In this document: one piece after another, positions 414 to 47,757 of the stretch
How positions within the stretch are numbered: the stretch's first letter is position 1
Layout: each line of letters opens with the position of its first letter
Source: Desulfobulbaceae bacterium
GTDB lineage: Bacteria > Desulfobacterota > Desulfobulbia > Desulfobulbales > Desulfobulbaceae
DNA length: 51,408 bases
Direction: 5' to 3'
Assembly: GCA_019163135.1 (NCBI GenBank)
Contig: JAFLKR010000117.1
Location: 1-51,408 of the forward strand
Translations under genes and position numbers: made by a program
The notes under the pieces: generated by a model
Seen by the model: the letters and a program-made list of their open reading frames with translations, nothing else
What the model was told of the DNA's origin: nothing
Databases searched by the model: none

Positions 414-456
414 CCAGAATAATAACTCGACACTAACATAAGTGAGGGGAAGGCCA

Positions 457-1056
457 ATGGTAGAACGCGCCACCCGGAAATCGTCCTTGCAGCGCAAGAC
501 CCGGGAAACTGATATACAACTCGTCCTCGATCTTGACGGGATCGGGCAAACGACCATCCGAACCGGCGTCGGGTTCATGGATCATATGTTGACCCTGTTT
601 GCGGTCCACGGTTTTTTTGATCTGGAAATCGCGGCCAGGGGGGATATCGACGTCGATGACCACCACACGGTCGAAGATCTCGGGATCTGCCTGGGCATGG
701 CTTTTCAGCAGGCTCTGGGGGATAAAGGCGGCATCTGCCGTTACGGCCATGCCTATGTCCCTATGGATGAAACTCTGGCCCGGGTCTGTGCCGACTTCTC
801 CAATCGACCCTTTCTGCACTATCAGGTGGTGATGACCGAGGCCAAAATCGGGACCTTCGACACCTCCTTGGCCAAAGAATTTCTACGCGCGTTTGTCCAA
901 CATTCCGGTTTGACTCTGCATGTTGACTTGCTCCATGGGGAAAACGGGCATCATATCCTCGAGGCCGTCTTTAAGGCCCTGGGGCGGGCCTTGGCGATAG
1001 CCGCCGGCTCGAATCCAAAGGTATGCGGACAACTCTCCTCCAAGGGAGTGCTTTAG
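457..1056 (+). CDS. hisB: imidazoleglycerol-phosphate dehydratase HisB
   Basis: HisB removes water from imidazole glycerol phosphate to give imidazole acetol phosphate in histidine synthesis, using two manganese ions in a 24-subunit cytoplasmic enzyme. The 199-residue length matches monofunctional HisB; there is no HAD phosphatase domain as in E. coli. The metal-binding signatures are visible: GFMDHM (39-44), HHTVED (69-74), and HGENGHHILEA (160-170). The end SSKGVL is also typical. ATG 457 is preferred because GGGGAAGG lies just upstream; the in-frame GTG at 442 overlaps that site. The gene stands alone here. The HisH/HisF gene is about 45 kb away, so the pathway genes are not in one cluster. 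Confidence 0.96.
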   Translation: MVERATRKSSLQRKTRETDIQLVLDLDGIGQTTIRTGVGFMDHMLTLFAVHGFFDLEIAARGDIDVDDHHTVEDLGICLGMAFQQALGDKGGICRYGHAYVPMDETLARVCADFSNRPFLHYQVVMTEAKIGTFDTSLAKEFLRAFVQHSGLTLHVDLLHGENGHHILEAVFKALGRALAIAAGSNPKVCGQLSSKGVL

Positions 1057-43895: not shown

Positions 43896-44891
43896 TCACG
43901 AGACCCGCAGCTTTAGTAGAGCGGTGCTGAGATCGGTGTATAGTTCCTCCACGGTTTCATAAAAGACATCAGCACCCGCAGAAAAGTGGAGTAAAATGTT
44001 GTTGAGTATATCAGGAATATAAGGGAAAAGTTTTTGCAGGTTAACTATCCGGTTTTGTGAAAGTAGCGAGAAATCGGCTGGAGTGAGGGCCTGCACCACT
44101 GCAGCGCCCATGGTCGGGTCGGCCAATACCTCCCGCGGATGATAATCCCCCCGTCCAGTAAGATATATTAGGATATTACCCAACTCAAAGAGATCGAGGG
44201 CAAAGGGTTTTTCCGGTAAGTAAAAATCGTAGTCAAAATCGATCCAGTAGTAGATGCCCGTGTTCCGGTCGACAAAGATGTGATCACGGCGGATATCGCC
44301 GTGCCGGAAACCGTTTCGGTGGAGAAAACCGATGGCCTGCAGGCTACTAAGGAACTGTTCGAGAATTTGGGGTAGTTCCTTGGAAAAATAGTCCCTGTGA
44401 GAACTCTCGCTGTGGATGACCTTATCCAGACGATTGCCGCAAACCGGAGCCAGCACTCGCACCAGATTGCCGACGGCATCCAGCAAGGTTTCGCCTTGCA
44501 TGAAATGGGGTTGGCCTTGTACCAACTCAAGAATTCTAGCTTCCTTTTCCGGGCTACGGTAGCAGGTCACCGTTAATTGCCCCAGGCGCATGTCAAAGGT
44601 TTCTTTGAAGACCAGTTTAACGATGTAATTCCTCCCCGTTGCCAGATCCTCGACCTTGGGAACCCAGGGCTTGATTTGCTCATCAACACCGAATCTCCCC
44701 TCTTTGGTGTAGGAGGTGATCAAAAAATATCGGCCCTCTGCCGCGATGATGTCGCCGTAATCGATTGAGGTGAAATCGGTGGTGTCGGTAAAAACCCGTG
44801 ATGGCCGCCGCAAACTGCGAGTGACCCGGTGGTTTTTCAAGGTTCGGATGATGGGTTCCGGTAGCGAGTCGATTGAAGAATAGACAGCCAT
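43896..44891 (-). CDS. divergent protein-kinase-fold protein
   Basis: The 331-residue protein has a kinase-like core: FRHGDIRRDHIFVD (HGD replaces HRD; the catalytic Asp is kept) and a metal-binding DFD in YYWIDFDYDF, which replaces DFG. An upstream Lys in IVKLVFKE may be the ATP Lys. The pattern resembles LPS- or aminoglycoside-type small-molecule kinases and atypical Ser/Thr kinases. Its ATG shares one base with the UspA TAA (TAATG), so translation is coupled. ATG 44891 is preferred over 44906, which would overlap UspA by 16 bases. Substrate unknown. Confidence 0.75.
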   Translation of the reverse strand: MAVYSSIDSLPEPIIRTLKNHRVTRSLRRPSRVFTDTTDFTSIDYGDIIAAEGRYFLITSYTKEGRFGVDEQIKPWVPKVEDLATGRNYIVKLVFKETFDMRLGQLTVTCYRSPEKEARILELVQGQPHFMQGETLLDAVGNLVRVLAPVCGNRLDKVIHSESSHRDYFSKELPQILEQFLSSLQAIGFLHRNGFRHGDIRRDHIFVDRNTGIYYWIDFDYDFYLPEKPFALDLFELGNILIYLTGRGDYHPREVLADPTMGAAVVQALTPADFSLLSQNRIVNLQKLFPYIPDILNNILLHFSAGADVFYETVEELYTDLSTALLKLRVS

Positions 44892-45346
44892 TATCCGATC
44901 ACCCACACGGCTATGTCCCTGCCATTATGGATCAGGGCGTTGGAGATAGAGCCGAATAGGAATTCTTCGGCCTTGGAGATGCCACGTTTGCCAACAACGA
45001 TTGTGCCGTAGTTTTCTAGCTCCTGCAATTCAAGAATGGCGGCGCTGATCGACTGTTGACCGGCGATTCGACAGCGGGAACTGATGGCATGGGCGCCAAT
45101 CCCATAGCCTTGCAGGACTTTTTTTGCTTGGGCAAAGAGCATCTTGGCTCTTTCTTCCTGTTCCGTCTTGTATCCATCCAAGTTGGCTCCGGATTGATAG
45201 TAATCAGGAGGTGGTTCGGGATAGATGTGGAGCAGGCAGAGATGCACCTCAGCCAGATGACCGACTATGCTGCCAACGTATTCGACTGCATTGATTGATC
45301 GGGGAGAATCGTCGATGGCGATGATGATGCGTTTCCAGTCACTCAT
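44891..45346 (-). CDS. universal stress protein, UspA family
   Basis: The 151-residue protein has IIIAIDDSPRS at its start and the ATP motif VGKRGISKAEEFLFGSISN (GxxGx9GS), so it belongs to the ATP-binding group. A perfect AGGAGG precedes ATG 45346; an earlier in-frame ATG at 45367 overlaps that site. It is coupled to the kinase-fold gene, which suggests a signalling pair. Confidence 0.92.
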   Translation of the reverse strand: MSDWKRIIIAIDDSPRSINAVEYVGSIVGHLAEVHLCLLHIYPEPPPDYYQSGANLDGYKTEQEERAKMLFAQAKKVLQGYGIGAHAISSRCRIAGQQSISAAILELQELENYGTIVVGKRGISKAEEFLFGSISNALIHNGRDIAVWVIG

Positions 45347-45494: not shown

Positions 45495-45986
45495 TCAGGC
45501 TTCCATGCGTCCGGCGGTGTGAACGAAAAAGAGTTTCCAGGTTTCCGATGTGTTGAGAATCGAAGCGCCGATGGTTTTGCCGTCCCAACCAGTGCTTTCC
45601 CATTTTGGTTGTATGTGCAGTATTGGTATGCTGGGGTTATCGTTGGAAAAAACCGTCAGTTGTCTGGCGCTGCGGTAGAGTTGTTCTGGGAGATTGCGTA
45701 GACAGATACCGCAGAGCGAGATGTTATCAACCAAGGCGGTAGCAAAAAGGCAGCCATCGGTAACTTGAACCGTCGTTTCTGTTAAATTGATGCGGGGATA
45801 CCGCCGTTGGTCTGCAGCCGTCAGGTGGCGATCGTTCCCGCTTACCCCATGGTCGACCTGGTCGCGATCAGGTGCAAGCGTATCTGTAGATCGTGTCAGC
45901 AGTCCTCTAATGGCCCGCAACAGTTTTAGCAGAGACGGCACCGGAAAACGACGACCCGATGATTCTGTTGTTGGATGCGACACCAT
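45495..45986 (-). CDS. PilZ-domain protein
   Basis: The 163-residue protein has a PilZ c-di-GMP-binding domain in its second half: RxxxR in DQRRYPRINL (near 60-67) and DNISLCGICL (near 86-95), the DxSxxG motif. The first 55 residues are unstructured and basic. It would bind c-di-GMP and relay it to a partner. It has no operon partner here; the HD-GYP pseudogene at 6710 is the other c-di-GMP gene in the window. Confidence 0.85.
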   Translation of the reverse strand: MVSHPTTESSGRRFPVPSLLKLLRAIRGLLTRSTDTLAPDRDQVDHGVSGNDRHLTAADQRRYPRINLTETTVQVTDGCLFATALVDNISLCGICLRNLPEQLYRSARQLTVFSNDNPSIPILHIQPKWESTGWDGKTIGASILNTSETWKLFFVHTAGRMEA

Positions 45987-46182: not shown

Positions 46183-47757
46183 TCAGGCTTTGCGGATTTC
46201 GACCTTATCTTTCAGGTAGTCCTTCACCATACCGATCGGAATCTCCTTTCGATGGAAGATACCGGCGGCCAGGGCGGCTTCTGCCTTGGTTTGGGTGAAT
46301 ACCTCAAGGAAATGTTCGCTGCTGCCGGCGCCGCTGGAGGCAATCACCGGGATGGTGACTGCGGAGCGGACCGCATTGATCAACTCCAGGTCAAAACCCG
46401 AGTTGGTGCCGTCCCGATCAATGCAGTTGAGCAGGATTTCCCCGGCCCCTAGTTGCTCGCAGACTTGCGCCAGTGTGATGGCATCCAGGTCACGGCCCTC
46501 GCGTCCACCCTTGATGGTGCACTGGTACCAACAGTATTGTTCGCCTTCCGGCCCGGGAATGGCGGTTTCAATCACCTTGTGTGTGACCGTTGCCGGGTTC
46601 TTTAAATACACCCGACGCGGGTCGATGGAGATAACCACCGCTTGGTTGCCGTAGACCCGGGCGATCTGTTCGATGGAACTGCACCCCGTGGCCTTACCGG
46701 TTTTCAGCACGTCCTCGACAATCAGGACCGCGTCAGAGCCGATGGATACCTTGTCGGCTCCTGAACGGAAATATTGCGAGGCCACCTCCAGAGCGCTGTA
46801 ATAGCGGCCGTTCCGGTCGGTGAAGTCGCGGATGCCGCCGCCAATAGTCAGGGGGACAAAGACATTTTTTGAGGTCTCCTGCAGGACAGCGAGCATGGGC
46901 ATGTCTTGAAGGGGGAAATCGCGGAAGCCGGTGATGTTGAGAAAGGTGATCTCGTCGGCGCCCTGATCGTAGTATTCCTTGGCCAGTTCTACCGGCTTGC
47001 CCAGGTTGCGGACCGTGCCCTCCTGGCGGACATCGTACTGGTCTCCCTTGGTGACCACCAAGTCGCCCCGGTCGTTGGCGCGCACATCCAGGCAGGCGAT
47101 GATCCGTTTGGCCAGAACCGTGGTTTGCGGGCAGGCGGCGGGGCGGATGGCTTCGCGGCCAGCGGCGAGGAAATTTTCCAGGATCTGCAATCCGGCCCGA
47201 CCGCTTTTTTCCGGATGGAACTGGGTGGCCACCATCGTCCCTTTCTGAATGGCACTGACGAATTCGTACCCGTAATCGGTGGTGGTCAGGATGTCGGCGT
47301 CGGTCTTCGATACCACATGATAGGAGTGGACGAAGTAGAATTTTTCATCACCCTGCAATCCGTGGAACAGCGGCGAAGCCTGGCGTATTTTTAGGCCGTT
47401 CCAGCCAATGTGCGGGATGGCGAGATCGGTGGTGAAACGCTGTACCCGTCCGGGGAGAATAGCGAGGCCCGGTTCTTCCGGGGCTTCTTCGCTTGATTCA
47501 AACAGGGCCTGGAGCGCAACGCAGATGCCGAAGAAAGGTTTGCCCGAGTGCAGATAGCGGATCAACGGTTCCCGCAGCTGCTTTTGTCGTAGGGTGTGCA
47601 TCAGGGCACCGAAGTTGCCGACCCCAGGAAAAATAAGGCGTTCGGCGCGATCGATGTCTGCGCCGGTGTTGACCAGCATTACAGTTTCGCCGAGGCGTTC
47701 GATGGCATTAATAACCGAGCGGACATTGCCGGCGCCGTAATCAAGGAGAGTAATCAT
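46183..47757 (-). CDS. hisHF: imidazole glycerol phosphate synthase, fused HisH-HisF (HIS7 type)
   Basis: The 524-residue protein joins the HisH glutaminase (1-200) to the HisF cyclase (about 217-524). The glutaminase triad is Cys79 (GIC), His181 and Glu183 (FHPEKSG). HisF has the catalytic Asp in ACLDVRAND (224) and Asp in CIDRDGTNSG. It makes IGP and AICAR from PRFAR and glutamine. Bacteria usually have two separate proteins; fusion is the rule in fungi and plants. The text agrees with yeast HIS7 in segments such as KGDQYDVR, GADKVSIG, CWYQCTIKGG and GAGEILLNCID, which ordinary HisF lacks. It is remote from hisB. Divergent with the next gene. Confidence 0.94.
   Translation of the reverse strand: MITLLDYGAGNVRSVINAIERLGETVMLVNTGADIDRAERLIFPGVGNFGALMHTLRQKQLREPLIRYLHSGKPFFGICVALQALFESSEEAPEEPGLAILPGRVQRFTTDLAIPHIGWNGLKIRQASPLFHGLQGDEKFYFVHSYHVVSKTDADILTTTDYGYEFVSAIQKGTMVATQFHPEKSGRAGLQILENFLAAGREAIRPAACPQTTVLAKRIIACLDVRANDRGDLVVTKGDQYDVRQEGTVRNLGKPVELAKEYYDQGADEITFLNITGFRDFPLQDMPMLAVLQETSKNVFVPLTIGGGIRDFTDRNGRYYSALEVASQYFRSGADKVSIGSDAVLIVEDVLKTGKATGCSSIEQIARVYGNQAVVISIDPRRVYLKNPATVTHKVIETAIPGPEGEQYCWYQCTIKGGREGRDLDAITLAQVCEQLGAGEILLNCIDRDGTNSGFDLELINAVRSAVTIPVIASSGAGSSEHFLEVFTQTKAEAALAAGIFHRKEIPIGMVKDYLKDKVEIRKA

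Follow-up and report, generated by a model that had tools for sequence, protein, structure and literature searches.

Bacterial HisHF proteins, in which HisH and HisF are fused as in the eukaryotic enzyme HIS7, are already in print, and the gene analysed here is a further member of this group (PMC1963479, PMC11237513). Three HisHF sequences from two delta-proteobacteria were described in 2007 by Fani et al., who saw the shared insertions and proposed a transfer from plants to bacteria, the three bacterial sequences being grouped with the plants in their tree of 21 HisHF sequences (PMC1963479). In 2024, HisHF was reported for two species of Archaeoglobales, with about 70% identity to the HisHF of sulfate reducers (PMC11237513). 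Regarding the direction of transfer, a prokaryotic donor of eukaryotic HIS7, called 'still unknown', was treated as a possibility in 2021 (PMC8305728), as against the opposite direction derived in 2007 from the three bacterial sequences (PMC1963479). Added here are the wide spread of such genes, an unfused cousin HisF with a halfway look, and a co-occurring HisA of eukaryote type. For the unfused HisF and for the eukaryote-type HisA (model hisA_euk) in Desulfobacterota, no report was found among the matches listed in open-licence literature, outside of which most subscription journals lie; this is weak evidence because of the limited scope and because the hisA_euk model is public.

The window, i.e. 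the whole stretch of 51,408 nucleotides that was analysed, belongs to a Desulfobulbus-like genome that is 98.95% complete. A sequence-only reading had noted one 524-residue protein carrying both HisH and HisF, which was confirmed; the gene lies on the minus strand, a point left unstated there. It starts with ATG and is read in the order HisH then HisF in one frame (Table 1), while the plus-strand reading of the same interval contains 7 stops. Both domains passed the cut-offs of their NCBIfam models, HisH with 217.2 bits (TIGR01855; cut-off 105.4) and HisF with 318.2 bits (TIGR00735; cut-off 294.55), and Pfam assigned GATase and His_biosynth. The catalytic and gate residues given in Table 1 are invariant in 40 fused proteins and aligned with yeast HIS7; their roles as glutaminase triad, cyclase aspartates and tunnel-mouth gate are those of the HisH/HisF family. 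According to the sequence, the HisH domain would hydrolyse glutamine at its Cys-His-Glu triad, and the ammonia would pass through a presumed tunnel along the HisF barrel to the two aspartates, where PRFAR would be converted to imidazole glycerol phosphate (IGP) and AICAR. We therefore read hisHF as encoding a bifunctional IGP synthase of the HIS7/HISN4 type for step 5 of histidine synthesis, and consider this, together with a leaning towards a bacterial origin, the best explanation as a whole, with a probability of roughly 0.88.

Table 1. Features of hisHF, the hisB gene of the same window, and unfused HisF genes of HIS7 type in class f23. Positions refer to the window unless a locus is named.
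Feature	Position	Strand	Description	Basis
hisHF gene	46183..47757, stop codon included	(-)	HIS7-type (eukaryote) bifunctional IGP synthase of 524 aa	ORF, profile and PDB matches
HisH glutaminase domain	47164..47754	(-)	residues 2-198; triad C79, H181, E183	NCBIfam; triad invariant in 40-row alignment
Linker	47116..47163	(-)	residues 199-214	gap between NCBIfam domain matches; length varies in alignment
HisF cyclase domain	46198..47115	(-)	residues 215-520; catalytic D224, D379; gate R218, E269, K336, E440	NCBIfam; 40-row alignment; aligned to yeast HIS7
HIS7-type insertion 1	47005..47082	(-)	residues 226-251, loop DLVVTKGDQYDVR; also in unfused f23 HisF	HisF alignment
HIS7-type insertion 2	46894..46926	(-)	residues 278-288, 3 residues more than ordinary HisF; absent from f23 HisF	HisF alignment
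HIS7-type insertion 3	46789..46821	(-)	residues 313-323, 11 residues; absent from f23 HisF	HisF alignment
HIS7-type insertion 4	46675..46722	(-)	residues 346-361, 13 residues; also in f23 HisF	HisF alignment
HIS7-type insertion 5	46519..46605	(-)	residues 385-413, ~24 residues, ends CWYQC; f23 HisF version ends CWFQC	HisF alignment
hisB	442..1056	(+)	IGP dehydratase, next pathway enzyme; ~45 kb from hisHF	
f23 unfused HisF	L092 5731-6627; L094 4996-5892; L095 3247-4173		insertions 1, 4, 5 of five	

The likeness to the yeast enzyme extends over the whole protein. When the PDB was searched with phmmer, the hisHF product matched entry 1jvn in a single stretch (residues 3-517) with 579.1 bits, and the best separate HisF reached 169.6 bits; the entry itself is named HISHF, and we take it to be yeast HIS7. 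Identity to yeast HIS7 is 55% over the whole protein. An AlphaFold model of the product (pLDDT 89, pTM 0.90) was compared with the PDB, and ranks 1 to 6 were taken by yeast HIS7 entries (1ox4, 1ox5, 1ox6 and 1jvn; TM 0.87-0.90, 48-50% identity), followed at rank 7 by a separate HisF with an E-value about 40 orders of magnitude weaker. Chance is excluded because of the E-value of 7e-173 to yeast HIS7 and because of homologues with 60-93% identity in 80 loci. The segments of yeast HIS7 said to be absent from ordinary bacterial HisF proved to be real: DLVVTKGDQYDVR, FRDFPL, the TDRNGRYYSA region, VEDVLKTG and PGPEGEQYCWYQC all align to yeast HIS7 and are missing in 10 rows of ordinary HisF. In two of these ten rows, L162 and L164 from Desulfobacterota, site 5 (that of the last block) also holds an insertion, but its sequence is unlike, so that length at this site alone proves nothing. 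The expectation of separate genes in bacteria agrees with the loci of ordinary HisF that were examined, where HisH and HisF are encoded by separate ORFs.

A HIS7-type HisF exists without fusion at least in f23, where it was found in all three genomes sampled from this class, which make up family f23 (G020, G058, G094), as HisF alone in frame, with about 298 residues from the conserved start. It resembles HisHF in insertions 1, 4 and 5 and in the SSGAG motif, so these three insertions are not unique to fused proteins. In contrast to HisHF, it is a separate protein without insertions 2 and 3, and it shares NSID and ASLFHY with the rows of ordinary HisF. In a tree of 68 HisF rows, f23, the fused proteins and yeast formed a clade with 100/100 support, inside which the fused proteins and yeast were united with 100/99, f23 thus being their sister. 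A second HisF above the cut-off was not found in the three f23 genomes, and matches of about 100 bits in G020 and G058 look like HisA. In G020 and G058, a separate HisH of ordinary type is located on another contig than HisF, and none was found in G094, a genome that is 80% complete. In a quick tree based on HisH only, the f23 HisH grouped with ordinary HisH and not with the fused domain; f23 is thus not transitional in both subunits. Its HisF looks like a halfway stage to the fused enzyme. A further HisF, on a plasmid of the haloarchaeon Natrinema (L194, 2498-3313), carries an SSGCG motif as well as insertions 1 and 5 in a shorter version; it forms the next branch outward from f23 in the tree, but as a long row flagged by the program, and may represent a further step outward.

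Our genome-wide searches covered the Desulfobacterota, in which 65 of 395 genomes, belonging to 26 of the 107 family codes, were found to carry HisHF. This number comprises 62 full-length genes in a single frame, one gene with a longer linker (G218), one partial gene (G033, residues 105-523), and G142, which has only the HIS7-type HisF at a contig start and on which alone family f13 was counted. The spread is patchy, with fused and ordinary forms within one family in f31, f52, f57, f80 and others; of the 41 genomes in the class of G309, 16 gave a match at E<=1e-70, and among these G398 showed the HisF part only. A HisHF of 582 residues at L096 (1754-3502), which is probably the same gene as that at L078 (6001-7749), owes its extra length to a long linker between HisH and HisF. 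Many Desulfobulbus-like loci conserve the upstream genes for a nucleotidyltransferase, a kinase and Der, which argues that hisHF is a resident gene in these genomes. In five other families, seven loci were examined (L098, L110, L119, L108, L145, L101, L109); the tested neighbours differ and no his gene, hence no his operon, was found among the ten flanking ORFs; the flanks encode YifB, a mannose-1-phosphate guanylyltransferase-like protein, a QueG-like protein, exosortase, an amidohydrolase, oligopeptide permease, a dihydroorotate-dehydrogenase electron-transfer-like protein and NifA, and two ORFs have no match. Near hisHF in the window, two ORFs (43896-44906 and 45495-45986) are without Pfam or NCBIfam match; the first of them accompanies a UspA-like gene, a pairing also present in L020 and L148, which probably come from one genome. 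Searches of viral contigs, plasmids, phages and solved structures for further eukaryotic HisHF yielded only yeast. The two-domain places in the plasmid records listed (40 of 93) and in all 15 phage records were joined from two or three pieces and at most 40.4% identical. Of the 12 viral loci, 11 encode HisH and HisF in separate ORFs of at least 150 residues (with HisF first in L191), and only HisH was found in L188.

For phylogenetic analysis, 188 HisF domains above 150 bits were aligned (139 fused, 43 unfused, three from f23, and those of Natrinema, the window gene and yeast), with some genomes represented twice and the contig-cut L097 labelled as unfused by the script. Reduction by identity gave a 119-row tree, from which L097 and L095 dropped out. 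Further trees were based on 68 hand-picked rows, on 80 rows with HisH and HisF joined, on 63 rows with f23 alone as outgroup, and on 70 rows; yeast was the only eukaryotic HisHF in them, as one long row. The fused proteins and yeast formed a clade apart from 10 ordinary rows in the 68-row tree (100/99) and from 30 ordinary rows in the 119-row tree (SH-aLRT 100). Since the HisF domain groups with yeast HIS7 and not with ordinary HisF, the placement inside ordinary proteobacterial HisF that the sequence-only reading had named as speaking against its idea did not occur; we looked for it and did not see it in the HisF trees. These trees support, as an either/or, the proposal of an old transfer or a bacterial relative of the eukaryote enzyme, and we lean towards the bacterial origin.

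Within the clade, the four HisF trees and the joined tree all nested yeast among the fused bacteria, its exact neighbour varying by tree, and the fused bacteria appeared as one clade in none of 200 bootstrap trees (68-, 80-, 63- and 70-row sets). AU tests of bacterial monophyly of HisHF gave p values of 0.051 (68 rows, borderline), 0.315 (80 rows, HisH and HisF joined), 0.513 (63 rows with f23 as sole outgroup, the constrained tree being 0.6 log units better) and 0.0226 (70 rows); the four tests were tried in turn on different row sets, and the p values are uncorrected for that. The quick tree based on HisH only placed the fused bacteria on one side of a branch and yeast outside, with a support of only 18. 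Because the f23 HisH is of ordinary type, the joined tree mixes histories, so that weight was put on HisF alone. When alignment columns were polarised by f23 (thresholds 0.8), 7 columns united yeast and crown bacteria against f31, 2 united the bacteria against yeast, and 1 united yeast and f31; at stricter thresholds, 4, 0 and 1 columns remained in these classes. Against other deep rows (f27, f40, f57), 1 column only spoke for yeast nesting.

A second enzyme of eukaryote type was found in the same genome. Its only HisA, located on another contig than hisHF (C2:38515-39261; L231, 1489-2250), scored 322.2 bits (229 aa) and, in a second search, 355 bits with the model TIGR02129 hisA_euk (cut-off 229.3), versus 59 bits with the ordinary HisA model (cut-off 228.95). 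The best PDB matches were 9fcf (296.5 bits) and 2agk (212 bits), which we take to be plant HISN3 and yeast HIS6, respectively; the next entry reached 35 bits. The PDB matches of HisB and HisD, by contrast, showed no bias towards eukaryotes: HisB scored 186 bits with a bacterial and 183 bits with a plant entry, HisD 362 bits with its best entry and 258 bits with the plant entry. hisA_euk was detected in 34 of 395 Desulfobacterota genomes and in none of 14 control genomes. HisHF is present in 24 of the 34 hisA_euk genomes versus 41 of the 361 others (Fisher p 1e-13); counted by family, 9 have both, 17 HisHF only, 5 hisA_euk only and 76 neither (p 7e-4), and at neither level do the p values fully correct for kinship. 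Either gene also occurs without the other, hisA_euk in ten genomes and HisHF in 41 of 65. Nine of these ten (G066, G101, G129, G156, G208, G249, G252, G328, G384) have weaker HisH/HisF matches (E 1e-50 to 1e-79), with an ordinary HisF seen in G066, G101, G249 and G384; the tenth, G346, had no HisH or HisF match in the profile search. The hisA_euk tree, from which the 17 collected ordinary HisA rows were left out and in which the end branch of yeast HIS6 is 4.75 long, gives no direction.

The evidence fits an origin of the eukaryote-type HisF in bacteria, with the fusion probably having taken place there too. HIS7-type HisF may at first have been a separate bacterial subunit, of the kind that f23 still has, and fusion to a HisH would have followed in Desulfobacterota, with subsequent patchy spread there; eukaryotes would then have taken HisHF from this pool. 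We favour this order of events as a lean and not as proof. The more specific scenario, in which HisF was of eukaryote type before any fusion (f23 as a relic), the fusion happened within Desulfobacterota, and eukaryotes received HIS7 and perhaps also HisA (HIS6/HISN3) from that lineage, is tentative, and we hold the odds to be somewhat against it. If true, eukaryotes would owe two successive steps of their histidine synthesis to Desulfobacterota, in the opposite direction to the published transfer from plant to bacterium. Should the transfer have run from bacteria to eukaryotes, Desulfobacterota would have a share in the way eukaryotes make amino acids, and an intermediate between two subunits and one chain would be visible.

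The model of Fani et al., by which the fusion arose in eukaryotes and plant HIS7 was passed to a bacterial ancestor, with later spread among its relatives, appears unlikely. The f23 HisF is the strongest single argument for a bacterial origin because it has no simple place under this model: it is bacterial, unfused and partly inserted, and branches outside the fused proteins and yeast. The published grouping of the three bacterial sequences with plants (PMC1963479) and the HisA of the window genome, with an identity of 56% to plant HISN3 and of 46% to yeast HIS6, point towards plants. Against this stands the occurrence of HisHF in so many Desulfobacterota genomes and families, as well as the f31 fused proteins, which keep f23-like states at the 7 columns where yeast has the crown state. 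The tree tests fall on both sides: the 70-row set argues against one bacterial clade, whereas only one of the four AU tests was below 0.05 and the HisH-only tree leaves yeast outside the fused bacteria. Broad sampling, f23 as a near outgroup and the eukaryote-type HisA make the direction question for HIS7 directly testable.

Much less probable is a different function, namely that the gene is a fused WbuZ/HisF2-type sugar amidation pair and not a histidine enzyme. Genes for a sugar-phosphate nucleotidyltransferase-like protein and an AmgK-like kinase lie upstream of hisHF, and the product matches WbuZ with 163.8 bits and AglZ/HisF2 with 116.8 bits, but both scores are far under the respective cut-offs of 299.7 and 310, whereas HisF and HisH pass theirs; on these profile scores the reading was rejected. 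Moreover, the window genome has one HisH and one HisF match, both of them hisHF, together with HisA, HisB and HisD (contigs C2, C10 and C17). As the only IGP synthase found in this genome, hisHF would thus do step 5 of histidine synthesis. A match on contig C102 (L002) was discarded, as it sits in a 49-residue open frame and none of the ORFs listed there is HisF by eye.

Least probable of all is that ordinary hisH and hisF of deltaproteobacteria fused late and independently, the likeness of the segments to yeast being due to convergence. Fusion would be mechanically easy since both genes are adjacent and in frame with a single stop codon between them in G295, G103, G284 and G146, but we rejected this reading within the sampling used, as the window HisHF shares five insertions and the above whole-protein identity with yeast, the HisF trees unite the fused proteins and yeast, and the HisF of those four genomes (L149, L150, L151, L179) belongs to the ordinary clade of the 119-row tree.

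Compared with known systems, the window HisHF agrees with yeast HIS7 in the order of its domains, in the catalytic and gate residues, in the insertions and in the fold predicted here; it differs in that an insertion in HisH and a longer linker after HisH of the yeast protein are shorter or missing. With ordinary bacterial HisF of the Thermotoga maritima type it has the barrel and the catalytic core in common, but that type is without the HIS7-type blocks, as reflected by 170 versus 579 bits. The HisHF proteins described for delta-proteobacteria and Archaeoglobales are of the same gene type as the window gene (PMC1963479, PMC11237513). Where the 2007 set comprised three sequences from two bacteria (PMC1963479), the comparison now extends to 65 of 395 genomes and to an unfused sister form.
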